This document shows, one piece after another, positions 13,360-45,777 of a stretch of DNA of 64,000 nt. Numbering within the stretch: the first letter of the stretch is position 1; the number at the start of each line of letters is the position of its first letter. The notes beneath the pieces are model-generated. The model had not been told where the DNA came from. It saw only the letters and a list, made by a program, of their open reading frames with translations, and made no database searches. A program made the translations under genes and the position numbers. The DNA comes from Burkholderiales bacterium (GTDB lineage Bacteria > Pseudomonadota > Gammaproteobacteria > Burkholderiales > Casimicrobiaceae), in the NCBI GenBank assembly GCA_016790165.1, contig JAEUPL010000011.1, positions 1 to 64,000 on the forward strand. Reading direction: 5' to 3'.

Positions 13360-14505
13360 CTATCGCTTGCCTTCACTCATTGCGTAACTGGCGGGCGGGC
13401 GGAATAGTGATGCATCGGGATCGCCCCGCTTGATGTCCGTCATGCGATAGAGCGATTCGCCGTTGCGCGGGTCGATGCGACGGTGGTAAACCGTCATTTT
13501 GAGCTCCGGCGAATAGTATTTCTCAACAACCGTTTCGATGGCCTTGCTGTTGCCGATCGCACCCGCCGCAACGATCTCGACGCTGCGCTCGGTGTCCACG
13601 CTCAGACCCTCGTAGGGTTGACCGGTCTTCTTCTCGCGCGTGAGCTGTGTAGTCACGCCCGATGTGCCCGCGTTCGCCAAGGCGGGAGGCACCGGCGGTG
13701 TGGGCGGTAGCGGTGCGGCGCTGCCGGCGCCGCGCTCCCTATTGACCGTGATGCCCTGCGTGAAATCAAGAATCTGCGCGCGCGGGCTGATGGTGACGTT
13801 GACATCGTCACGCGTACTCATCATGGCAATCCCGCTGCGGTTGCTCGCGATGAATCCGAAGCCCAGCGGCTTCCAGTCGCCTTTCATCTGCCGGAAGCAA
13901 TCGTGAATAGCGCGTTCGTCGAATCCCGCCCGACAGGCCGTTTGTTTTTGCGGATCGACAATGTAGGCCTCTTTCGCCACCGGGTCATTGATGAACACGC
14001 GCGCGCTGCCGTCGGCCTGACGCAGCTCCTGCCGCGTGCGGCCCTCGCTGTCGCGCGCAAGCAGGCGCGTGCTTGAGCGTTGAATCACGGTGCCGTCGCC
14101 AAGCGTCTGCCGGAACTCACGCACTTCGCGCGCGGCATAGGGATTGCCCTTTTGTCGGTCGTTGGCGGCCGAGCGAAAGATCGCGGCGCCCTTGCTGCCG
14201 GCCTCCTCAATCGCTTTGAGAATGGTTTCGCGCACCTCGTCAGCGTTGACCGAGGAGCGATCCGCGCTGGCAAGCGCGCCGTGGACGGCCGCCATTGCCT
14301 TGTCGATGGCGCTACCCGCCACGTCTGGCAGATCGAGCTCTTTGCCGTCGATCTTGATCACGATGCTGCGGCGTTCGCGCGGCTCCGCCGGAGCCGTGTT
14401 TGCCGCCTTGTCGTCCGCGCGTGCGGGTGCAGCGGCGAAGAGCACCGCCGCAGTGGCAAGCGCGCAGACCAGGGGGCGCGGGGGAAGGTCGGTCCGAATC
14501 GGCAT
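13360..14505 (-). CDS. Exported protein of unknown function, third gene of ECF sigma operon
   Basis: A 381-residue protein with a clear signal peptide (PLVCALATAAVLFAAAPARA, cleavage after ARA). I do not recognise a named family. Residues 45-60 contain IVIKIDGKELDLPD, and the middle part (about 120-210) is rich in polar strands with two cysteines (TACRAGF and IHDCF). A proline-rich linker (PLPPTPPVPP) splits it before a C-terminal region that includes KKTGQPYEGLSVDTERS. It lies 17 bases downstream of the membrane protein of the sigma operon, so it is probably cotranscribed and acts in the periplasm, perhaps in sensing. That role is inference from position. Confidence 0.75.
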   Translation of the reverse strand: MPIRTDLPPRPLVCALATAAVLFAAAPARADDKAANTAPAEPRERRSIVIKIDGKELDLPDVAGSAIDKAMAAVHGALASADRSSVNADEVRETILKAIEEAGSKGAAIFRSAANDRQKGNPYAAREVREFRQTLGDGTVIQRSSTRLLARDSEGRTRQELRQADGSARVFINDPVAKEAYIVDPQKQTACRAGFDERAIHDCFRQMKGDWKPLGFGFIASNRSGIAMMSTRDDVNVTISPRAQILDFTQGITVNRERGAGSAAPLPPTPPVPPALANAGTSGVTTQLTREKKTGQPYEGLSVDTERSVEIVAAGAIGNSKAIETVVEKYYSPELKMTVYHRRIDPRNGESLYRMTDIKRGDPDASLFRPPASYAMSEGKR

Positions 14506-14522
14506 GGGTCACTCTCCATCGA

Positions 14523-15065
14523 TCAGTAAAAAATCGCACGCTGGTGCGTCACCGGGCGATCAACAAAACGCACCGCGAGCGGCTCACCTCGCGCCCCCAG
14601 CAGCAGCTCGGCACGCACGGGCTCGTGCAGCTTCTGCGGCGGCACCGGAATGCCGAAGTCGAGCATCGCTTCACGCGACACGCTGACGCGCAACAACTGG
14701 CTCACGTCGAGCGTGTTGCCGATGGGCTCGGCAACGAGCATGAAGGGCGTCGTCACCTCTGCCACGTCTGCGCTACGGCCGGTTGAGGTCGCAAGCCAGC
14801 CAATCCCTGTCCCCGCGGCCAACAGCATCGAACCGGCGACCGCGAATGCGAGGCGCTGCGGGAACAGCCAGCGCGTCCGCCACCCGCCGACACGCGGCCG
14901 CAACGGATGCGCAGCGGACGTCGCGTCCGTGCGGGCGACCGCAAACTGCTTGAGCAGGCTCCCTTCGAGCGCGTCCGGCGGGCCTGTCCGGCGCCACGCG
15001 ATACGAGCGTTCGCCCAGGCGTCGTGCACGTCGGCGGCGGGGAAGCGTGAGTCGGCGTTGTTCAT
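14523..15065 (-). CDS. Single-pass membrane protein, probable anti-sigma factor by position
   Basis: A 180-residue protein with a cytoplasmic-looking N-terminus of about 70 residues. It has one transmembrane segment near residues 73-91 (LAFAVAGSMLLAAGTGIGWL) and a periplasmic C-terminal part of about 90 residues. This topology and its ATGA overlap with the sigma factor stop are typical of anti-sigma factors. However, the N-terminus shows no zinc-binding HxxxCxxC motif and no strong family match, so the anti-sigma role is inferred. The periplasmic part contains PVPPQKLHEPVRAELLLG and could bind the third operon protein. Confidence 0.7.
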   Translation of the reverse strand: MNNADSRFPAADVHDAWANARIAWRRTGPPDALEGSLLKQFAVARTDATSAAHPLRPRVGGWRTRWLFPQRLAFAVAGSMLLAAGTGIGWLATSTGRSADVAEVTTPFMLVAEPIGNTLDVSQLLRVSVSREAMLDFGIPVPPQKLHEPVRAELLLGARGEPLAVRFVDRPVTHQRAIFY

Positions 15066-15697
15066 GCTGCATTTCGCCGTTCAGGCGGAAAAAGTTCCAT
15101 CAAGCGCTGGTGCAGCGCTGCCTTGGCCCGATGCAAGCGCGAACGCACCGTCCCGATCGCGCAGCCGAGAATCGCCGCCGTCTCGGCGTAGCTGAATTCT
15201 TCAAACTCAATGAGGGCTACGACTTCGCGATGTTCCGGCGGCAGCTCTCGCAGCGCGTCGAGCAGCGCCTGGCCACGCTCCTGCGCCAGCAGCGGAGCGA
15301 GCGCGTCCTGAATCGCGTCTTCATCGCCGTCCGGGCTGGGGGCTTCGACGTCTTCGAGGGACAGCGGCTGCCGCGCGTCCTGCGCGCGAATCCGCAGCAC
15401 CTGGTTTCGCACCACGCCACAAAGGAACGCAGCCAGGCTGCCCTGTGCGCGGTCATAGCTGAAAGCGCCCTGCGTGGCGAGCCAGAGGAAGGTCTCCTGA
15501 GTCGCGTCGGCGGCCGCGTCGCAGTGCGGCGCGTGGATTCGGGCGTGACGAAACACGACGCCCGAGTGCCGGCGGTACAGCGTCGACAGCGCAGCCGCGT
15601 CGCCCTGTCGCACACGCGTGAGCAACGTCATGTCGTCGACGGCAGAAGAATCGGGCGGCGCGGCATCCACAGGCGCTATTCCAGTTCGTGGCGACAA
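15062..15697 (-). CDS. ECF-type RNA polymerase sigma factor
   Basis: A 211-residue sigma-70 family factor of the extracytoplasmic function group. Region 2 covers about residues 25-100 (LLTRVRQGDAAALSTLYRRH, and DATQETFLWLATQGAF for -10 recognition). Region 4 covers about 145-200 (LRELPPEHREVVALIEFEEF, followed by the helix-turn-helix YAETAAILGCAIGTVRSRLH). No region 3 is present, as expected. The gene is first in a three-gene minus-strand operon with a membrane protein and an exported protein. It is divergent from a TonB-dependent receptor that it may control. The start at 15697 is uncertain; a later GTG or ATG before LLTRVRQG is possible. Confidence 0.88.
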   Translation of the reverse strand: MSPRTGIAPVDAAPPDSSAVDDMTLLTRVRQGDAAALSTLYRRHSGVVFRHARIHAPHCDAAADATQETFLWLATQGAFSYDRAQGSLAAFLCGVVRNQVLRIRAQDARQPLSLEDVEAPSPDGDEDAIQDALAPLLAQERGQALLDALRELPPEHREVVALIEFEEFSYAETAAILGCAIGTVRSRLHRAKAALHQRLMELFPPERRNAA

Positions 15698-15756
15698 AAG
15701 TTCCCATTCCGCGGGCGCGGAGCGTCGTGCTTCAAACGATCGTGCGACACACGGCG

Positions 15757-15880
15757 GTACAGCTTTCGCGGTCTATGCACTGATTGGCGGTCGTTACGTT
15801 GCATTTGTTCAGTAAGTCGACTTTATGCGAAATGCTGCGCAAACGACCGCGTAGTAGCGGTCAAGCAACAAAAGCTGTAC
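15757..15880. promoter_or_regulatory. Symmetric inverted duplication, candidate divergent ECF promoters
   Basis: Read outward from 15818.5, both strands carry the same ordered elements: a central palindrome AAGTCGACTT, then AACGACCGC, then exactly 20 variable bases, then AAAGCTGTAC. The outer arms are 15757-15766 and 15871-15880, the middle arms 15787-15795 and 15842-15850. The spacers between arms differ in sequence but keep the same length. Conserved blocks with fixed spacing in both outward directions, between an ECF sigma gene and a receptor gene, suggest two matching promoters or operators. That role is inference. Confidence 0.55.
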
Positions 15881-16107
15881 TGAGTTGGCGGGACCCATTT
15901 GCCAGCCACCAGCAATAAATCGGCGCGGCGAAATGCGCCGGGCGTCCGCGTCCATGCATTTGTCATAACCACGGGCGCGCCGAAAGTGACGCCGTTGCGA
16001 CAGTGGTTGCCGCGCTTTGCGATTTGTCACCGCGCCGTCATCCGCCCACCGCCCGGCTGTGAAATATTTGGTTGTTTCCCAAATCCTCCTCAATCCGGCA
16101 AATCATC
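15881..16107. other. Long leader upstream of the TonB receptor, no gene seen
   Basis: Together with the inverted duplication this forms a 410-base gap between the sigma factor and receptor genes. These 227 bases would be the 5' leader of the receptor transcript if the rightward element at 15842-15880 is a promoter. I see no open reading frame with family similarity and no strong terminator. A weak CTCCTC/GGCA region precedes the ATG at 16108. Confidence 0.4.
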
Positions 16108-18504
16108 ATGCAAATCTCCTCGTCAGCCCCGCAGCGACACCTGCGCGTTTCGCGCGTCGCTCGCGCCGTCACCCTCGCCCTTGCCAGCGCCGCAATGTCC
16201 GGCGCCATGGCTCAGGCCACGCAAGAGAAGGACGACGCACCGCGCGCCAAGGAAGACGCGATTCGCGTCGGTACCATCACCATCGTCGGTCAGGGCGACA
16301 AACTCGGCGCCGGGCAGATCTTGAAAGAGGATACGGTCAAGGCGCGCTCGACCGTCACCAAAGATGCCACCGAGAAGGATCGCGCCACCGGCAACCCTTA
16401 CCAGGCGATTGCCATCCTGCCTGGCATCAACACGTTTAACCATGACGCAACCGGCCTCTTCGGCGGTGGTTTGACCATTCGCGGCTTCGGTGCCGACCAG
16501 ATCGGCTTCACCATCAACGGTGTGCCAGTCAATGATTCCGGCAGCTATTCCGTGTTCCCACAGGAATATGTCGACAACGAAAACTCCTGCACCCAGACGG
16601 TGGCGCAGGGCAATCCCGACGTCGAATCCCCGCACATCGGCGCCACGGGCGGCAGCGTGGGCATCACCAGCTGCGACCCACTGGACGCACGACGTTTCCG
16701 CGTTGCCCAGACGTTGGGCAGCCTGAGTCTGTCCCGCACCTTCGTGCGTGTCGACAGCGGCCGCTTTGCCGGCGGCAAGGCGAAAGTCTACGTAAGCTAT
16801 TCGCATTCCGAAGCCGACAAGTGGAAGGGCCCGGGTGGAGCCAAGCGCGACCATATTGACACCGCGTTCGCTTTGGACCTTTCACCAGACAATCGCATCG
16901 TGGGCGTGTTCAATTACAACAAGGCGATCAACAACAACTACGTCTCGCCGACCCTCGCTCAAATCAACACCAACGGTTACTACTGGGATCTCTCACCCAC
17001 CTTCGTTGGTCATCTGACGCCTGTCAACGGAACGGCGCAGCGCGAATCGTCGCCATTCCCGCCGTACTACAAGCTGGCAACCAACCCGTTCGAAAACCTC
17101 GTTGGATCGCTGTCGGGCTCGTTCAAGCTGGCGCAGAGTACCTACCTGAAAGTTCAACCCTATCTGTGGTGGGGCTACGGTACAGGCGGTACGCAGCAGC
17201 GAACGCTCTCGGAAACTGCGTTCCTCAACACGACGACCAACCGCACCGGCGCTGGCGTTGACCTGAACGGGGATCGCGACACGCTGGACACCGTGGTCGT
17301 TGCCAGCAGCAACGTCACGCGCACGATGCGCCCTGGCGTGACTGCGGAAATCAATCACCAGTGGGGTAATCACGCCCTCAAATTCGGCGTCTGGTATGAA
17401 CGCGCACAACACAAGCAAACCGGTCCGGCCGTGCTGGTGGATGCGGCGGGCAATCCTGCGGACGCGTGGCTGCGCGACGGCCGACTGCTACGCCCTGACG
17501 GCTCGCAATACAACTCGCGCGACTGGCTGACCATCAGCCCGGCGTATCAGGCCTACATCGCCGACTCGTTCAGTTTCATGAATGATCGCGGTGTGCTGCA
17601 ACTGGGCCTTCGCGCGCCGGGCGTCACCCGCAAGTTCACCAATTACGCCAGCGAAGCCGCCAATTCGCAAACCACTTACACCATCGAAAAGACGTACACC
17701 GATATCCTGCCGCAACTGGGTGTGCGCTTTAACGTTGACCGCGAGCAGCAGGTATTCGCCAACGTCGGCAAGAACTTCCGCGCACCGCCGAATTTCGCGT
17801 TCGCCCCCACCAACAACAACGTTGCATTCATCAATGGTGTCCCGACGCTGGTTGGCAAGGTGGAGGCCGAAACCTCAGTGGTTACCGATGTTGGTTACCG
17901 CTTCCAGGGCCGCTCGCTCACACTCTCTGCGTCGGTGTTCAATGTCGATTTCAAGAATCGCCAGGCCAACGCGTTTGACCCGAACACCCTGAAGAGCATC
18001 TACACCAACGCCGGTGATGTACGTAATCGCGGCCTCGAGCTCGAATTGGGCACGGCAGCGGTCAACGGCTGGACGGCCTATGGATCGCTCACGGTGCAGA
18101 AGAGCAAGGTACTCAACGACCTCCGGGTAAGTGCGACATCCACGCTGGCTACGTCCGGCAAGCAATTCCCCATGACGCCGCGCATGATGGCCGGTCTGGC
18201 CATCCAGTACGCCAATGGGCCGCTCTACGCCCGCCTGAAGGCCAAGAAGACGGGCCGTCAGTTCGCCACGCTGATGAACGACGAGGAAGCACCCAGCTAC
18301 ATGACGGCGGATTTCGACGCCGGCTACCGCTTTGCGAACATGGGCTTTATCAAGAACCCGATGATCCGCCTGAACGTGAGCAACGTAGGTAACACCAAGT
18401 ACCGCACACCGAGTTCGAACGCGGTGCTGACAGCCGCCAACACGCCGTTCTACTATCTCGGTGCTCCGCGCTTCTTCTCGGCCACGCTGAGCGCTGACTT
18501 CTAG
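16108..18504 (+). CDS. TonB-dependent outer membrane receptor
   Basis: A 798-residue outer-membrane active transporter. A signal peptide (ending SGAMAQA) is followed by a plug domain with the TonB-box-like stretch TITIVGQ, the plug core QAIAILPGINTFNHDATGLF, and GLTIRGFGADQIGFTINGVP. A 22-stranded barrel follows, and the chain ends in phenylalanine (FFSATLSADF), as expected for Bam-dependent folding. The ATG at 16108 was chosen over a TTG at 16072 because it starts the signal peptide. It is divergent from the ECF sigma operon, which suggests regulation by that sigma factor. Substrate (siderophore, cobalamin, sugar or other) is not evident. An intrinsic terminator lies about 60 bases downstream. 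Confidence 0.92.
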   Translation: MQISSSAPQRHLRVSRVARAVTLALASAAMSGAMAQATQEKDDAPRAKEDAIRVGTITIVGQGDKLGAGQILKEDTVKARSTVTKDATEKDRATGNPYQAIAILPGINTFNHDATGLFGGGLTIRGFGADQIGFTINGVPVNDSGSYSVFPQEYVDNENSCTQTVAQGNPDVESPHIGATGGSVGITSCDPLDARRFRVAQTLGSLSLSRTFVRVDSGRFAGGKAKVYVSYSHSEADKWKGPGGAKRDHIDTAFALDLSPDNRIVGVFNYNKAINNNYVSPTLAQINTNGYYWDLSPTFVGHLTPVNGTAQRESSPFPPYYKLATNPFENLVGSLSGSFKLAQSTYLKVQPYLWWGYGTGGTQQRTLSETAFLNTTTNRTGAGVDLNGDRDTLDTVVVASSNVTRTMRPGVTAEINHQWGNHALKFGVWYERAQHKQTGPAVLVDAAGNPADAWLRDGRLLRPDGSQYNSRDWLTISPAYQAYIADSFSFMNDRGVLQLGLRAPGVTRKFTNYASEAANSQTTYTIEKTYTDILPQLGVRFNVDREQQVFANVGKNFRAPPNFAFAPTNNNVAFINGVPTLVGKVEAETSVVTDVGYRFQGRSLTLSASVFNVDFKNRQANAFDPNTLKSIYTNAGDVRNRGLELELGTAAVNGWTAYGSLTVQKSKVLNDLRVSATSTLATSGKQFPMTPRMMAGLAIQYANGPLYARLKAKKTGRQFATLMNDEEAPSYMTADFDAGYRFANMGFIKNPMIRLNVSNVGNTKYRTPSSNAVLTAANTPFYYLGAPRFFSATLSADF

Positions 18505-18562
18505 TCGATCGCTCTGCGTAGCGCGCGGGTCATGCACCCGACCCGCGCGACGATCATCACGA

Positions 18563-18593
18563 CAAAGCCGCGCGAGCCGCGGCTTTGTTTTTT
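18563..18593 (+). terminator. Intrinsic terminator after the TonB receptor
   Basis: CAAAGCCGCG pairs perfectly with CGCGGCTTTG over 10 bp around a 5-base loop and is followed by six T residues. The T-run touches the GGAG ribosome-binding site of the next gene, whose ATG is at 18606. Any transcript entering that gene from upstream must therefore pass this hairpin. Confidence 0.85.
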
Positions 18594-18605
18594 GGAGACT
18601 ACGGC

Positions 18606-20681
18606 ATGAACATTCAGGCAACGATCCCCCGGCTGCTACTCGTCCTCGCAGGTTGCGTCGCGCTGACCGCGTGCACGATTGCCCCGCGATCCACCCCGTC
18701 AAGCACGCCAACAGACGCAATTCGCACTGTCGCGCCATTGCCTGAAGGCACCCGCGCCCAGCTCGCCGTGCTGGAAACCACCGACCTGCACACCAACATC
18801 CTCTCTTACGACTACTACAAACTCGGCGAGGATCGCAGCATCGGCTTCGAGCGCACGGCGGCGTTGATCACTGCGGCGCGCAAGGAATTTGCCAATACAC
18901 TGCTTTTCGACAACGGCGACACCATCCAGGGCACCGCGCTCTCGGACTACCAGGCGCAGGTCAAGCGCCTCGGTTGCGGCGAGGTGCTGGCGATGTACAA
19001 AGTGATGAATGCGCTGGGGTACGACGCCGGCGGCATTGGCAATCACGAGTTCAACTACGGCTTGTCGTTCCTCTCGCAGGTCACCGGCAATCGCTTCAAC
19101 GTCGATTTGCGACCGGGGGAACAGGCCATTGCCGCGCAACCCTGCGCTGGCCCCAACTTTCCACTGGTGCTCGCCAACGTACTGTCGGTGAAAGACCGCA
19201 AGCCACTGTTCAAGCCCTACGTCGTTCTCGACCGCACGCTGAAGGCAACCACCGCTGACGGCAAGATGATCGAAGCGCCGATCAAGGTGGGCGTCATCGC
19301 CTTTACACCGCCGAAGATTCTGGACTGGGACAAGCGCTGGCTGAACGGCGTGGTCTACACCGACGGCATCAAGGAACTGGCCGAGCAATACATCCCCGAG
19401 ATGAAAGCGCAGGGTGCCGACCTGATCGTCGCCATCTCGCACGGCGGACTGGATGCCAACCCCTACACACCGTCGATGGAGAACGCGAACTGGCATCTGG
19501 CGCAGGTGAAGGATGTGGACGTGATGCTGATCGGCCATTCACATCAAACCTTCCCCAATGCGGCGAGCACCATGAACCAGTTCAACCTGCCGGGCGTCGA
19601 CAAGGCCAAAGGCTTGGTGCACGGTGTGCCGACGGTGATGGCGAATTTCTGGGGCAAGACGCTCGGCGTGATCCAGTTGCAACTGATCGCGAAGGACGGT
19701 CGCTGGTCGGTCGACAAAACGAAGACGGTGGTCGAGGCACGCAACATTCAGAACGCTGATCGCAGTTTTGTCGCCCCGCTTCCAGTCGTCGCCGAGACGA
19801 TCCGCGCCGAGCATCAGGCCACGATCAACTACGTGAAAACACCCATCGGCCACAGCGATTTCGCGATGACCAGCTACTTCGCCGATGTCGGCGATGTGTC
19901 CGCCATGCAGATTGTGAACATGGCACAGACCGAGTACGTCGCCAATTACATCAAGCAGACCATGCCGCAATTCGCCAACCTGCCAGTGCTTTCAACCGCA
20001 TCGCCGTTCAAGACCGGCTTTGCCGGGGGGGCCGATTTCACCGACGTGGCCGCCGGGCCGATCGCCATCAACAACGCCGCCGATTTGTATCTGTTCCCGA
20101 ACACGCTGTACGCCGTGAAAGTGGACGGTGCGGGACTGAAGGCCTGGCTCGAGGCCGCCGCGCGCCGCTTTAACCAGATCGACCCAGCGCGCCCGACGGA
20201 GCAATCGCTGACCAGTACGGCGCCCGGCTATACGTTTGACATGCTCACTCATCCTGACGTCAGCTACGAAATCGACGTCAGCAAACCCTTCGGTTCCCGC
20301 ATCGCGAACCTGACCTACAAAGGGGTGGCAGTGCCGCCAACGGCAGAGTTCATCGTAGCCACCAATAACTACCGCGCCAGCGGCGGCGGCAACTTCCCTG
20401 GTCTCGATGGCACCCGGACGATCTTTGCCTCGCCAGACACCAACCGCGAAGTGCTGATCAACTATGTCAAGGCCGTAAAGACGCTCACTCGTGCGGCCCA
20501 CGGCAGCGCGCGCAGCTGGCGCTTTGTCAAGCTCGCTACAGCCGGCCCGGTGGTGTTCAAGTCGGCGCCAGGCAAACTGGCCGTCGCACAGGCTGCGGGC
20601 ATCAACAACGTCCGCGAGCTGCGCGCCGACGATGGCTCCGGCAAGGGGCTGGCGGTTTATCAGATCGACTTGTCGAAGTAG
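18606..20681 (+). CDS. 5'-nucleotidase / 2',3'-cyclic phosphodiesterase, lipoprotein
   Basis: A 691-residue metallophosphoesterase of the CpdB/UshA family that dephosphorylates extracellular nucleotides and 2',3'-cyclic nucleotides. The N-terminus is a lipoprotein signal (LVLAGCVALTAC, lipid-modified cysteine near residue 23), unlike the soluble E. coli CpdB. Metal-binding motifs are visible in order: TTDLHTN, DNGDTIQG, GIGNHEFNYG, AISHGG and GHSHQ. The C-terminal nucleotidase domain includes NNYRASGGGNFPGL. The start at 18606 is supported by GGAG eight bases upstream and by the signal sequence; the frame opens seven codons earlier inside the terminator. It may supply phosphate and nucleosides, in keeping with the nearby pst operon, but no Pho box was seen here. 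Confidence 0.9.
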   Translation: MNIQATIPRLLLVLAGCVALTACTIAPRSTPSSTPTDAIRTVAPLPEGTRAQLAVLETTDLHTNILSYDYYKLGEDRSIGFERTAALITAARKEFANTLLFDNGDTIQGTALSDYQAQVKRLGCGEVLAMYKVMNALGYDAGGIGNHEFNYGLSFLSQVTGNRFNVDLRPGEQAIAAQPCAGPNFPLVLANVLSVKDRKPLFKPYVVLDRTLKATTADGKMIEAPIKVGVIAFTPPKILDWDKRWLNGVVYTDGIKELAEQYIPEMKAQGADLIVAISHGGLDANPYTPSMENANWHLAQVKDVDVMLIGHSHQTFPNAASTMNQFNLPGVDKAKGLVHGVPTVMANFWGKTLGVIQLQLIAKDGRWSVDKTKTVVEARNIQNADRSFVAPLPVVAETIRAEHQATINYVKTPIGHSDFAMTSYFADVGDVSAMQIVNMAQTEYVANYIKQTMPQFANLPVLSTASPFKTGFAGGADFTDVAAGPIAINNAADLYLFPNTLYAVKVDGAGLKAWLEAAARRFNQIDPARPTEQSLTSTAPGYTFDMLTHPDVSYEIDVSKPFGSRIANLTYKGVAVPPTAEFIVATNNYRASGGGNFPGLDGTRTIFASPDTNREVLINYVKAVKTLTRAAHGSARSWRFVKLATAGPVVFKSAPGKLAVAQAAGINNVRELRADDGSGKGLAVYQIDLSK

Positions 20682-26514: not shown

Positions 26515-27315
26515 ATGTCGTTTCAAGTCAGTCTCGGCGATACCCAGGTGGCGGCAGCGGCACGCACCAAGATCGGTATTCGCAACCTGAATTTTTTCTA
26601 CGGCAGCTTTCAGGGCTTGCGTGACATCACGCTCGATATCCCCGAGAAGCAGGTCACCGCGTTTATCGGTCCGTCCGGTTGTGGCAAATCAACCCTGCTG
26701 CGCACCCTGAACCGCATGTACTCGCTCTACCCCGGCCAGCGTGCCGAGGGCGAGATCAACCTCAACGGCGTTAACGTGCTGAGCGCGAAGCAGGATCTCA
26801 ATGCGCTGCGCGGACAGGTGGGCATGGTGTTCCAGAAACCGACGCCGTTCCCGATGTCGATCTACGACAACATCGCGTTCGGTGTGAAGCTCTATGAAAA
26901 GCTCGGCAAGGGCGACTTGGATGACCGTGTCGAGTGGGCGCTCAAGAAGGCCGCGCTGTGGAACGAGGCGAAGGACAAGTTACACCAGAGTGGCCTGTCG
27001 CTCTCCGGAGGCCAGCAGCAGCGCCTGTGCATCGCCCGCGGCATCGCCGTAAAGCCGGAAGTGCTGCTGCTCGACGAGCCGACCTCGGCGCTTGACCCCA
27101 TTTCGACCGCCCGCATCGAGGAGCTGGTCAGCGAGCTGCGCAGCGACTACACCATCGTGATCGTCACCCACAACATGCAGCAGGCCGCGCGCGTTTCGCA
27201 GCACACCGCGTACATGTACCTGGGTGAGCTGATCGAATTCACGCCGACGGCGCAGATCTTCGTCAAACCGAGGGACAAACGCACCGAAGACTACATCACA
27301 GGTCGCTTTGGTTAG
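26515..27315 (+). CDS. pstB: Phosphate ABC transporter ATP-binding protein
   Basis: A 266-residue cytoplasmic ATPase energising the Pst importer. The Walker A motif GPSGCGKST is near residue 53. The Q-loop is [20 protein letters not shown], the signature is [14 protein letters not shown], Walker B is [12 protein letters not shown], and the switch histidine lies in [11 protein letters not shown]. The pattern is specifically PstB ([13 protein letters not shown] and FPMSIYDN). The start ATG follows AAGAAG about 8 bases upstream. The gene lies 10 bases ahead of phoU. Confidence 0.97.
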
Positions 27316-27325
27316 GACAGTCACC

Positions 27326-27994
27326 ATGGAACACACTTCAAAACAATTCGAGCTCGAACTGGAAGACCTGCGCAGCGGTCTGCTCGCAATGGGCGGGCTG
27401 GTGGAGGCGCAACTCGAACGGGCTCTGGAGGCCATTGCCTCGGGCGAGGATGAACTGGTGGAGGTCGTCGTGCGCGAGGAAAAGCGCGTCAACGAAGCCC
27501 AGATCGAACTTGACCGCAAGAGCATGGAAGTCATCGCCAAGCGGCAGCCGACGGCCGTGGATCTACGACAGATCGTCTGCACCATGCAGGCGGTGAATGA
27601 TCTGGAGCGTATCGGCGACGAAGTGAAGAAAATTGCGCTGCGCGCGCAGCAGTTTCAAGCGTCCGAGCGCTTTCAGCACCTGCGCCTGAACGAAGCCAAA
27701 CACATTGGCGCGCTGGCGCAAGAGATGCTGAAGGAAACCCTGAATGCTTTTGCGCGCCTCGATGTGGTCGCCGCGGGCGAGGTGATCGGTCGCGACGTGG
27801 CGGTGGACGAGGAGTTCGAACGCATCATGCGCTTGCTGGTGACCTACATGATGGAAGACCCGCGAACCATCAGCCCCGGTCTGGACGTTGCCTTCCTCGC
27901 CAAGGCCATCGAGCGCGTGGCCGACCACGCCAAGAACATCAGCGAATACGTGATCCACATCGTGCAGGGGCAAGACCCCAGACACGCCGGCTGA
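27326..27994 (+). CDS. phoU: Phosphate signalling and transport regulator
   Basis: A 222-residue cytoplasmic helical protein that links Pst transport to PhoR signalling and represses the Pho regulon under phosphate excess. It shows two PhoU repeats; conserved stretches are KRVNEAQIELDRKSMEVIAKRQP, LRQIVCTMQAVNDLERIGDEVKKIA and LAKAIERVADHAKNISEYVIHIVQG. The E/DxxxD metal-contact motifs are in ERIGDE and ERVADH. The ATG at 27326 follows AGGACAG; the open frame begins six codons upstream. It closes the pst operon. Confidence 0.96.
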   Translation: MEHTSKQFELELEDLRSGLLAMGGLVEAQLERALEAIASGEDELVEVVVREEKRVNEAQIELDRKSMEVIAKRQPTAVDLRQIVCTMQAVNDLERIGDEVKKIALRAQQFQASERFQHLRLNEAKHIGALAQEMLKETLNAFARLDVVAAGEVIGRDVAVDEEFERIMRLLVTYMMEDPRTISPGLDVAFLAKAIERVADHAKNISEYVIHIVQGQDPRHAG

Positions 27995-28382
27995 GCTCAG
28001 GCGCGTTCAGGTGGTGCCGGTTCTGGGGTGCCTGCGCGGTTGGCGCCGCAGGTGGTTCGGCGGCGCAGATTAATAGCTCCCCGCGTCGTCACCCTGCCCA
28101 GACCGATCATCGCGTCGACCCCGGCGATGCGCGAATTCAGGCCTCAACAGCTTTTTAGGTCCAACGGCGGCTGCTCGGTAGTTTGATCGCAATTTTGTCT
28201 ATTATCGACAATGCTCGAAAATTGCCTCAATAGCCCGCCGGCCGGTCGATGGGGCGAAAAGCTGTTGACCTCGTCTACACTGCGCGCATCCTGTTTTGGC
28301 GCCAGGCCGTCTTGACCGTCGCGACGACCGCTGACGGCGGGTGAGGCGCCCATACCTTAGAACTTCGCCATGGCCCGGTGCA
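27995..28382. other. Intergenic region between phoU and rsmB
   Basis: These 388 bases hold no supported gene. The stretch at 28180-28230 is AT-richer than its surroundings and contains a dyad, and the promoter for the rsmB-ntrYX operon is probably within or after it. No convincing phoU terminator or small RNA was identified. Confidence 0.4.
28189..28225. repeat. Inverted repeat upstream of rsmB
   Basis: GCAATTTT at 28189-28196 is complementary to AAAATTGC at 28218-28225 across a 21-base spacer. A second short dyad, TTGTC and GACAA, lies inside it with a different centre. The AT-rich setting suggests an operator or promoter structure. A regulator cannot be named. Confidence 0.35.
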
Positions 28383-29738
28383 ATGTCTGACGCTTCTGCT
28401 TCCGCTGTGCCGGCTACCCCGGCCACATCAGGCAAGGCAGGCGTTGCGCTGTCGCGGGTGCAGCGGCGCGCGGCCGAGGCCGTGCTGGGCGTGCTCGTGG
28501 GCGCCAACGCCGACTCCGCGCTGGCGCGACTCGACTGCAGCGGGTTCGACGGTGCCACGCGTGCTGCGCTGACCGATCTGACTTACGGCACACTGCGCTT
28601 TCTCGGCGAAACGCGCGGCATGGTCCGTCTGTTTGTGCACCAGAAGCCCGAGCCGCTGATTGAAGCACTGCTGTGGATTGCGGTCTACCAGCTGCGGCAC
28701 AGCAAAACGGCGTCGCACGTGGTAGTGTCCCAGGCGGTGGCGGCCGTTGCCGAGGTCAACCGCGCAGCGAAGGGCTTTGCCAATGCCGTGTTGCGCAACT
28801 ATCTGCGTGGCCCGGAGGAGGCGCTCACGCGCGCCTGCGAGCGCGACGAGGCGTTGTGGAATCATCCGTCGTGGTGGATCAGCCGGCTGCAGCAGGAACA
28901 ACCCGAGTGGTGGGAGGCGATCCTGCGTGGCGGCAATGGCAGCGGGCCATTGACGCTGCGCGTGAACCGGCGACGCAGCACCGCGGAGACGCTCTGCGCG
29001 GCGCTCGCGGCGAAGAAGATCGACGCCGAAGCACTCTCCGCCCACACCGTGGTGCTACGCCGGCCACGTCCGGTGGAACGCCTGCCGGGGTTTCGCGCCG
29101 GCGATTTTTCGGTGCAGGATGCCGGTGCCCAGTTGGCCGCGCCGCTCCTGGGCGCGAAGAGCGGCATGCGCGTGCTTGACGCCTGCGCCGCGCCGGGCGG
29201 CAAGGCGGCGCACCTGCTGGAACTGGCCGATATTGATTTGCTGGCACTTGATGTCGATGCCACCCGTTGCCAGCGCATTGCCGAGAATTTCGCCCGGCTC
29301 GGATTGAGGGCTGACGTGCGCACTGCCGACGCCGCTCTACCGGCGGCCTGGTGGGACGGCCGCCCCTTTGATCGTATCCTGCTTGACGCGCCGTGCACGG
29401 GCTCGGGCGTAGTGCGCCGTCATCCTGACGGCAAATGGCTCAAGCGCGAGAGCGACATCGCGCAGCTCGCCGCGCAACAACGGCGCCTGCTGGACGCACT
29501 GTGGCCACTCGTCGCGCCCGGTGGCCGATTGCTCTATGCCACGTGCTCGGTATTTCGCGCTGAAAACAGTCAACAGGTCGAGGCTGCGCTCGCCCGGCAC
29601 GCCGATATGCGTCGTATCCGCATCAATTTGCCCGGCGATCCAGCGAGCAGCGGCGGGCAGTTGTTGCCAGGTGGCAATCGCAAGACCCACAATCACGATG
29701 GCTATTTCTATGCCTTGCTGGAGAAGGCGCCGTCGTGA
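28383..29738 (+). CDS. rsmB: 16S rRNA m5C967 methyltransferase
   Basis: A 451-residue S-adenosylmethionine-dependent RNA methyltransferase that modifies cytosine 967 of 16S rRNA. The N-terminal NusB-like helical domain covers about residues 15-150 (RRAAEAVLGVLVG, LTDLTYGTLRFLGETRGM). The catalytic domain carries the SAM motif LDACAAPGGKAAHLLEL and the two RsmB cysteines in DAPCTGSGVVRRHPD and YATCSVFRAEN. The ATG at 28383 was chosen because the 14 codons upstream in the same frame have no family counterpart. It overlaps the next gene (TGATG). The rsmB-DUF4390-ntrY-ntrX order is typical of betaproteobacteria. Confidence 0.93.
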   Translation: MSDASASAVPATPATSGKAGVALSRVQRRAAEAVLGVLVGANADSALARLDCSGFDGATRAALTDLTYGTLRFLGETRGMVRLFVHQKPEPLIEALLWIAVYQLRHSKTASHVVVSQAVAAVAEVNRAAKGFANAVLRNYLRGPEEALTRACERDEALWNHPSWWISRLQQEQPEWWEAILRGGNGSGPLTLRVNRRRSTAETLCAALAAKKIDAEALSAHTVVLRRPRPVERLPGFRAGDFSVQDAGAQLAAPLLGAKSGMRVLDACAAPGGKAAHLLELADIDLLALDVDATRCQRIAENFARLGLRADVRTADAALPAAWWDGRPFDRILLDAPCTGSGVVRRHPDGKWLKRESDIAQLAAQQRRLLDALWPLVAPGGRLLYATCSVFRAENSQQVEAALARHADMRRIRINLPGDPASSGGQLLPGGNRKTHNHDGYFYALLEKAPS

Positions 29739-45029: not shown

Positions 45030-45172
45030 TGAGACCCCCGGGAGAAGCTGATGGCTGGCCGCGCTTGGGTGTGCGGTCGTCGCTGCTCAGATTAATACTA
45101 TGCCTGCACCGCGACAGCAAGACCGGCACGGCGCGGCACAATGCGACGATGGCGGGCAGCGATGGATGGATG

Positions 45173-45180
45173 AGGGAGGA
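45173..45180 (+). promoter_or_regulatory. Strong ribosome-binding site fixing the phosphatase start
   Basis: The purine-rich GAGGGAGGA stretch ends six bases before a GTG at 45187. Upstream ATG codons at 45100 and 45166 lack such a site, so translation probably starts at the GTG. Confidence 0.7.
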
Positions 45181-45186
45181 AACGCC

Positions 45187-45675
45187 GTGGCAAATTCGCA
45201 GTGGGGGGTCTTGTTCGTTTGCATGGGCAATATCTGCCGCAGCCCGACGGCAGAAGGCGTGTTCCGCCACAAGGCGCGCCAGGCGGGGCTGCTGGATCGT
45301 TTGCTGATTGATTCGGCAGGGACGCACAACTATCACCCCGGTGAACCGCCGGACGCGCGCGCGCAGGCCTACGCGCGCGAACGCGGGTACGACCTCTCGG
45401 CACTGCGGGCGCGGCACCTGCGGGACGACGATTTCGAGCGCTTCGACCAGATCGTGGTGATGGATGACTTGAACTTTTCCACCGTGATCGCCCGCGCCAC
45501 TGCAGCGCAGCGAGGCAAAGTGCAGCGCCTTCTGGCGTTTGCGGCCGATCCAGCGATCCGCGCGCAGCGCGAGGTGCCCGATCCGTACTACGGCAACGCG
45601 GCAGACTTTCGCCGCGTGCTGGACTGGGTGGAGTGCGCCTGCGACGGCTTGCTGGCCAATATCGCCACGAGGTAG
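45187..45675 (+). CDS. Low-molecular-weight protein-tyrosine phosphatase
   Basis: A 162-residue cytoplasmic phosphatase. The catalytic loop C12-x5-R18-S19 is seen as VCMGNICRSP. The second family motif, with the general-acid aspartate, is VPDPYYG near residue 130, and the chain ends LDWVECACDGLLANI. The GTG start is supported by a strong ribosome-binding site and by the usual family length. Such enzymes act on tyrosine kinases of polysaccharide export or on arginine phosphate; no kinase gene is nearby. It is divergent from the GLUG-repeat gene and upstream of the secreted-protein cluster. Confidence 0.9.
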   Translation: MANSQWGVLFVCMGNICRSPTAEGVFRHKARQAGLLDRLLIDSAGTHNYHPGEPPDARAQAYARERGYDLSALRARHLRDDDFERFDQIVVMDDLNFSTVIARATAAQRGKVQRLLAFAADPAIRAQREVPDPYYGNAADFRRVLDWVECACDGLLANIATR

Positions 45676-45747
45676 CGGTGGTTTGATCGACTTGTCAATA
45701 AATCGCGCTGCAGCGACCGCCTGCTGGTGGTTTGCACTAAAAAGCTG

Positions 45748-45777
45748 TTGCCAACGCGGCGCGCAGCGCAGTAGTAT
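45748..45777 (+). promoter_or_regulatory. Possible promoter of the secreted-protein cluster
   Basis: TTGCCA and TAGTAT are separated by 18 bases in the 236-base gap before the CARDB-like gene. The gap holds no other gene-like feature. The match to sigma-70 boxes is fair only. Confidence 0.35.

Follow-up and report, generated by a model that had tools for sequence, protein, structure and literature searches.

The window analysed here, a stretch of 64,000 nucleotides from a Burkholderiales bacterium of the Casimicrobiaceae (assembly GCA_016790165.1, contig JAEUPL010000011.1), carries a 124-bp dyad element in the 410-bp gap separating an ECF sigma factor gene from a TonB-dependent receptor gene. 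Our best reading overall, which we hold with somewhat more belief than doubt, is that the element belongs to a dispersed, ancient and vertically inherited class of intergenic dyad sites on which a putative wrapping protein complex would assemble. Bacterial dispersed palindromes are usually explained as mobile DNA of doubtful benefit. Here, divergent copies hold an exact geometry and many hold their place across the genus, and selection at the DNA level therefore becomes visible. That the element is a DNA-level docking site kept by selection is, in our judgement, likely. Our literature search found no description of this 124-bp element, nor any title on repeats among the papers naming Casimicrobium or Casimicrobiaceae.

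Geometry, copy number and placement of the element

The first-pass annotation had described symmetric blocks with equal arm spacing. This description proved exact, as all five blocks share one centre (Table 1) and each arm contains a 20-base spacer. The best dyad in the 410-bp gap has 35 of 62 positions complementary, with 24 bases lying in co-centred runs of at least 5, and none of 1000 dinucleotide shuffles of the gap reached the observed dyad or runs (maxima 32 and 17). Together the blocks belong to a single 124-bp element, whose additional conserved columns (the A/T steps and the outer P1 halves) are visible only on alignment. The window also contains a second complete element, with a PhoU-domain gene (27308-27994) on one side and an RsmB/F-type methyltransferase gene (28341-29738) on the other, and a half element downstream of a low-molecular-weight phosphatase gene (45100-45675), starting 13 bases past its stop codon. 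A 37-letter consensus searched across the window gave 0 matches because single copies deviate from it, and a score matrix was used instead, with the window's 99.9th percentile (about -84 or lower) as reference level.

Table 1. Positions of the dyad element, its parts, its neighbour genes and the further copies in the window.
Feature	Coordinates	Strand	Score or basis
Complete 124-bp dyad element, centre 15818.5	15757..15880	.	profile score 87.6; shuffled null maximum about -60
Block GTACAGCTTT	15757-15766		direct reading
Block GCGGTCGTT	15787-15795		direct reading
Block AAGTCGACTT	15814-15823		direct reading
Block AACGACCGC	15842-15850		direct reading
Block AAAGCTGTAC	15871-15880		direct reading
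Left end block, columns 3-11, consensus ACAGCTTTT	15759..15767	.	aligned copies
Left P1, hexamers in columns 19-24 and 34-39; inner GTCGTT intact, outer AACGAC degenerate in the window copy	15775..15795	.	
Left A/T step, columns 48-51	15804..15807	.	aligned copies
Central AGTCGACT, columns 59-66	15815..15822	.	aligned copies
Right A/T step, columns 74-77	15830..15833	.	aligned copies
Right P1, columns 86-106; inner AACGAC intact	15842..15862	.	
Right end block, columns 114-122, AAAAGCTGT	15870..15878	.	aligned copies
ECF sigma factor gene, neighbour, outside the element	15062..15697	-	
TonB-dependent receptor gene, neighbour, outside the element	16108..18504	+	
Second complete element	28145..28268	.	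score 66.5
Half element, centre to right end	45689..45750	+	half-profile score 60.3

Searching the 3.76-Mb G000 genome for AACGACCGC-N20-AAAGCTGTAC with up to 3 mismatches, a check that had been proposed for the blocks, returned 119 matches (56 + 63) as compared to 2 for the reversed control, and these block pairs often form inverted pairs at the same 85-base offset. When 23 of the 119 places were fetched, 22 held a complete element according to a P1-blind pattern at up to 4 mismatches, and 20 did so at up to 2. With offsets of 70-104 bases allowed, the spacing was identical to that in the window in 63 of 70 paired half-sites; 4 were one base shorter and 3 otherwise different. After excluding pairs off the modal spacing, along with duplicates of the copy in the window, we aligned 60 unique copies, which are 59% identical on average, the closest pair (75%) being orthologous copies from two genomes. 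Their consensus is a 124-bp dyad comprising CAGCTTTT, P1 (ARCGACNGCCNGGCGGTCGTT), a short A/T step and AGTCGACT, followed by the mirror image, where P1 is a hexamer pair at 9-bp spacing, the A/T step is AA/TT and the core is centred on TCGA. Block columns carry up to 2 bits of information and many spacer columns about 0. T61 and A64 are invariant in both of the dialect sets described below (90 and 40 copies), and AA or TT occupies columns 49-50 in most arms of either dialect (159 of 180 and 74 of 80, respectively). With their fixed geometry and free spacers, the blocks behave as protein recognition sites, as had been suggested from the window copy.

For the relatives, the P1-blind pattern was GCTTTT-N48-GTCGAC-N48-AAAAGC with up to 2 mismatches, for which controls gave 0-2 matches. 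It matched 189 times in G000, 209 in G008, 164 in G015, 162 in G014, 117 in G012 and 111 in G001, more sparsely in G009 (36), G011 (17), G007 (7), G013 (5), G005 (1) and G016 (1), and 0 times in G002, G003, G004, G006 and G010; of 47 other genomes of the family, 4 had one match each. A sequence profile built from 46 copies of GGGCTT-type genomes (E up to 0.01) detected the element family in 16 of the 17 genus genomes, the family not being found in G010. The profile matches listed came to 15-140 in G002-G006 and 26 in G016, numbers that are not copy numbers, as one element can match both strands and up to 150 candidates were scored per genome. Outside the genus the profile detected the family in 0 of 47 genomes, a zero that is weaker than it looks given stricter filters and no positive control. 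A contig scan returned 55 stretches, most of them from the MAG Burkholderiales Go_SlAct_bin_239, whose element places agree with those of G008, and from Pseudomonadota JPNA_metabat.25, which is probably G015; the remaining stretches, singletons from unrelated taxa, are counted as chance.

With respect to genes, 77 element gaps from 80 loci comprised 49 co-directional, 16 convergent and 12 divergent gaps, as compared to 48, 6 and 22, respectively, among gaps of at least 120 bp without elements at the same loci. Convergent gaps were enriched (odds ratio 3.1, p 0.036) and divergent gaps had an odds ratio of 0.45 (p 0.054), the two tests being uncorrected; these placement biases are modest. Genes were called with a simple codon-usage script. 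In its first version 10 of 79 elements lay partly within genes; once the starts were refined, overlap with a called gene exceeded 60 bp for none of the elements. The flanks comprise 162 gene 3' ends at a median of 31 bp and 132 5' starts at a median of 53 bp. TANNNT is commoner on the 5' side of elements, as promoters would give, and no peak for a -10 or -35 box (TANNNT, TTGAC) at fixed distance was found in the 294 flanks.

The first-pass annotation had interpreted the blocks as back-to-back promoters read by the adjacent ECF sigma factor, one for each neighbouring gene. Both neighbour genes do start away from the element, and conserved blocks at fixed spacing would suit a promoter pair or activator sites specific to this sigma factor. 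However, this interpretation is contradicted by the 119 block pairs in one genome, by the recurrence of the element beside many different genes, with 111-209 copies in each of six genomes of the genus, by the 3' ends among the flanks (162 of 294), by the lack of a box at fixed distance and by the occupation of convergent gaps, and we regard it as scarcely tenable. As the elements extend beyond promoters and the boxes keep no fixed distance, membership in a class of ECF-sigma promoter pairs was rejected.

Copy independence, shared positions and P1 dialects

The analyses of flank distances, independence, phasing and target duplication were limited to the 151 copies with a score of 40 or more, with group sizes as given. 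Mean pairwise identities were 0.552 in G000 (n=42), 0.539 in G001 (n=41) and 0.591 in G008 (n=45), as compared to 0.549, 0.538 and 0.587 after column permutation, and the maximum identity within each of these genomes (0.67-0.73) fell inside the null range. The spread of pairwise identities exceeded the null by about 4-6 null standard deviations, and the copies are therefore close to, but not strictly, independent. The two arms within one copy were no more alike than arms from different copies. On this basis a recent inverted duplication, which the first-pass annotation had also argued against, was rejected. The copies resemble near-independent draws from one profile.

Pairing within P1 was assessed by covariation, which gave z scores (strict; with G-T) of 1.9 and 3.1 in one dialect and -0.6 and -2.5 in the other. 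The z of 3.1 corresponds to pairing of 0.808 versus 0.789, and compensatory stem changes showed no consistent signal across the two dialects. Covariation is thus absent or slight, in agreement with the earlier view that the blocks do not form an RNA stem. An RNA-level element, either a bidirectional terminator or mRNA-stability hairpins at gene ends, is suggested by the proximity to 3' ends, by the enrichment of convergent gaps, by the short hairpin that P1 could form together with the small pairing excess in one dialect, and by one copy in G001 (G001:C1:1057925-1058038, L128), the centre of which is extended into a perfect terminator-like hairpin (AAAAAACGGCTCAAGTCGACTTGAGCCGTTTTT). Such a role does not account for pairing below expectation in the other dialect, for an A/T step that takes AA or TT alike or for the occupied divergent gaps (12 of 77), and an Rfam scan of 8 loci gave no match at the elements; we consider it very improbable. 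The single Rfam match in these loci, to COG3860 RNA (L158 1517-1580, 48.1 bits), lies away from the element and is unrelated to it.

Elements in different genomes were compared through their flanking genes, using proteins of at least 45% identity and leaving out matches below 45% or half coverage as well as duplicate loci of the same copies. This comparison yielded 21 cross-genome element pairs at 16 loci, and all 21 face the same end of the orthologous neighbour gene, where chance would give about half. As the pairs were drawn from genomes sampled for elements, they show agreement of place, not its frequency. Most of these loci (13 of 16) join different dialects. Spacer identity in the 21 pairs was 0.31 as compared to a background of 0.29, core identity ranged from 0.56 to 0.88 (background 0.70), and P1 identity was 0.21-0.54 in the 16 cross-dialect pairs versus 0.54-0.79 in the 5 same-dialect pairs.

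We also followed single gaps of the window through the relatives, the sigma and rsmB gaps having been picked on G000 alone. For the sigma gap, a comparison that had been proposed from the window copy, the element is present in all three relatives keeping the sigma-receptor pair (G001, G014 and G015), and P1 differs from that of G000 in two of them. In the rsmB gap (window 28145-28268), the element is recognisable, with a score above -30, in 10 of 14 other genomes: G001, G014, G007 and G012 score 27-67, and G011, G006, G005, G003, G004 and G002 score -1 to -27, the weaker of them being in divergent form. G013 has a half element by eye (score -48), and the element is absent from this gap in G009, G016 and G010 (scores -94 to -99). 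The phosphatase gap, which in the window contains the half element 45689-45750, carries a complete or partial copy in 4 of 11 other genomes and none in 7. Downstream of the phosphatase gene in G004, G003 and G006 (L242, L244 and L245), parS-like sites of the TGTTTCACGTGAAACA type occupy the place where some relatives carry the dyad element.

One orthologous pair from G015 and G008 (L059 1340-1463 and L066 4842-4965) is identical in one half and rewritten in the other, at 86% DNA identity and with both flanks preserved. The L059 copy contains two perfect small palindromes, GCGCCGTCGGACGGCGC and GCGGTTTTTTCCGC, which could stem from template switching in a quasi-palindrome. In another element pair, synteny stops at the element. 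The half-rewriting and the synteny break could both reflect transposition, but recombination between copies or local rewriting would explain them equally well.

P1 is the part of the element that changes between species. AACGAC/GTCGTT halves characterise 90 copies from G000, G008 and G015 together; in the dialect of G001 (40 copies), GGGC occupies columns 34-37 in 96-100%, with a weaker outer AAGCCC. The ends, the A/T step and the centre are common to both sets. Most of the relatives whose copies were read have a GGGCTT-type P1: single copies of G007, G009, G011-G014 and G016 are of GGGC type, and G002, G004, G005 and G006 have a divergent GGGC type. The central TCGA is found in single copies from G002, G004 and G005 and is missing in one G006 copy. 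In an RsmB tree of 14 genomes (without G008, G012 and G015), rooted at the midpoint for drawing only, G016 and G010 branch first, and G000 lies inside a seven-genome fork together with GGGC-type genomes, with support of 90/90, which is below the strict limit. Since GGGC-type P1 occurs both among the early branches and in the fork of G000, it is probably ancestral, the rooting not being independent. Four G009 copies (L098, L110, L251 and L266) share P1 spacer letters (GCATCCA..) more than the copies of other genomes do, as expected from a younger expansion, and may represent a younger or homogenised population.

DNA-uptake sequences (DUS) are short words. The DUS dialects of Neisseriaceae are likewise genome-wide sites whose sequences change collectively from one species to the next (PMC3630211), and the element could by analogy be a DNA-uptake label with species dialects; segregation or condensin loading would be another single-protein purpose. 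However, DUS number in the thousands (PMC3630211), whereas the element is a fixed 124-bp dyad present in hundreds, and we hold purposes of this kind to be improbable.

Relation to mobile dispersed repeats

The family could alternatively be an old miniature mobile one of the REPIN, MITE or ERIC type, whose copies, once dispersed by a transposase with the ends or P1 hairpins as its target, decayed in place. Inverted repeats, high copy number, intergenic location and species-specific sequence are typical of REPs, which likewise sit between unidirectional and convergent genes (PMC3733652). Moreover, T is found at column 2 (66%) and A at column 3 (86%) in the AACGAC dialect, half elements exist, and the G009 copies look more uniform. 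Against mobility stand the lack of near-identical copies (the best pair among the 60 being orthologues at 75%, and identities within genomes staying in the null range), positions common to species although spacers are at background, and a terminal TA that is missing in the G001 dialect. Clear target duplication was not seen in the 151 copies: at the 124-bp boundary, 3-bp matches occurred in 4 copies and 5-bp matches in 2, and at the best of 169 offsets, 2-bp matches reached 0.325 versus 0.231, 3-bp matches 9 copies (about 2 expected), and 4- and 5-bp matches 3 copies. In sum, we consider the mobile origin unlikely, though less so than the RNA-level and uptake readings.

Y1_Tnp (RAYT-like) genes gave 44 matches in 15 of the 17 genus genomes, some of which lack P1-blind matches. 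At 30 of these loci, scanned with two dialect matrices only, an element lay within 1.5 kb at just 2, which speaks against mobilisation by this route; both are in the element-rich G008, the closest about 180 bp from the gene (L219 1501-2157), and can be read in its favour. Likewise, G010 has neither elements nor Y1_Tnp matches, which counts for mobility; G016 has elements and no Y1_Tnp match, which counts against it. In G000, the Y1_Tnp genes of L036 and L037 are surrounded by other repeats. In L037 (G000:C12:1-3222), two adjacent RAYT-like genes (173 and 165 aa) lie amid copies of a GTAG-type palindrome (GTAGCCTCGATGCAGCGCAGCGGAATCGAGG), which is a separate REP family in G000, and in L036 (G000:C7:95970-99296) a 279-aa Y1_Tnp-like gene lies near many short repeats with GGGGTCAGGTCTTGC and its complement.

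REPs are defined by a GTAG or CGTC tag beside a hairpin (PMC3733652), and REPINs by a near-identical population around a master sequence (PMC8049555). The element shares with REPINs and their RAYTs the inverted palindrome pairs, more than 100 copies and the intergenic location (PMC3116915, PMC8049555). Its consensus, however, has no GTAG or CGTC tag at a hairpin foot, and the family shows neither a RAYT flank of its own nor general RAYT linkage, nor a cloud of near-identical copies, and RAYT/REPIN membership was rejected. ERIC/MITE-type repeats (127 bp) resemble the element in length, imperfect dyad and intergenic placement (PMC2229807); unlike them, the element has no clear TA duplication and no near-identical copies, and its positions are common to species with RsmB 66-80% identical.

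Helical phasing and the candidate occupant

RIP/RIB-type BIMEs consist of two inverted REPs around an IHF site, spanning about 100 bp. Like them, the element has two palindromes flanking a central region, but its centre is a TCGA-cored palindrome and its copies are not near-identical. In each of the four groups analysed, A/T minima along the element lie 3-5, 13-14, 24, 44-45 and 54 bp away from the dyad, with further minima at 29-41 bp that are off a single phase. The best period was 9.75 bp in three groups; in G001 a period of 7.75 was slightly stronger, with 9.75 coming next. Phasing near 10 bp was found in 4 of 4 groups, with p 0.0005-0.005 against single-column permutation, a null that ignores smoothness, and the power at 9.5-12 bp against permuted blocks of 3-5 columns gave p 0.0005-0.048, weaker than the single-column test. 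The four groups are related and do not amount to four independent tests. Phased A/T of this kind could be the look of protein-wrapped DNA.

We prefer the docking reading because it covers the fixed geometry, the phasing, the near-independent copies, the kept positions and the dialects. According to this reading, a symmetric protein complex would bind the centre and wrap some 60 bp of DNA to either side of it, recognising P1 by direct readout and the A/T steps through DNA shape. The existence of dialects would then mean that the DNA specificity of one or more partners shifts and that the sites track this shift. Findings that argue against docking include the phosphatase gap, which is occupied in just 4 of 11 other genomes, one close pair that is half-rewritten although its flanks are alike, the excess spread of pairwise identities, the small P1 pairing excess in one dialect, the P1 spacer letters common to four G009 copies and the modest size of the placement biases.

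Gyrase is a weakly sequence-specific wrapper. Within the docking reading, the most likely occupant would be this type II topoisomerase, alone or with a sequence-specific partner, and gyrase is the leading candidate because of the size, symmetry, phasing and placement of the element. According to PMC6379681, the E. coli gyrase motif is 130 bp long, has its symmetry centre at the cut and shows GC phasing of 10.75 bp; BIME-2 repeats obtain high scores for this motif. The element likewise is symmetric, with helically phased G/C over 124 bp and a period near 10 bp, and it shares with E. coli BIME-2/REP clusters and strong gyrase sites the form of dispersed intergenic palindromes with about 130-bp symmetry and phased G/C (PMC6379681). 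It differs from them in that its blocks are base-specific, its spacing is exact, its period is nearer 10 than 10.75 and its P1 changes by species at fixed positions, gyrase being a candidate binder. Loaded at gene boundaries, gyrase would absorb supercoiling, the element then working in the manner of E. coli BIME-2 or of a strong gyrase site that is hard-wired. Against it stand the base specificity of P1 and of the ends, and a best period of 9.75 (7.75 in G001) instead of 10.75 weighs against docking and gyrase alike. Its share within the docking reading, which we had set slightly higher before the stricter phasing test, makes gyrase a possible but doubtful occupant.

Taken genus-wide, 100-200 or more nucleoprotein sites would be kept between genes, with the half-site rewritten in concert from GGGCTT-type to AACGAC/GTCGTT in one lineage (G000, G008 and G015), a scenario to which we assign not quite an even chance. 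If true, this would be a system of chromosome architecture whose DNA specificity co-evolves, different from every dispersed repeat that we found described, and the dialects would constitute a natural experiment on the joint change of a DNA-binding partner and of 100-200 or more sites. Should the elements be occupied by gyrase or a partner, they would act as sequence-encoded supercoiling sinks between genes.

As regards the genes around the window copy (window 13360-20681), the ECF sigma factor is accompanied by a possible membrane-anchored anti-sigma factor (14523-15065) and a 381-aa protein, neither of which has a Pfam match, and on the side opposite the sigma gene lie the TonB receptor and a 5'-nucleotidase-like enzyme. 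This locus may serve nucleotide or phosphate-ester scavenging.
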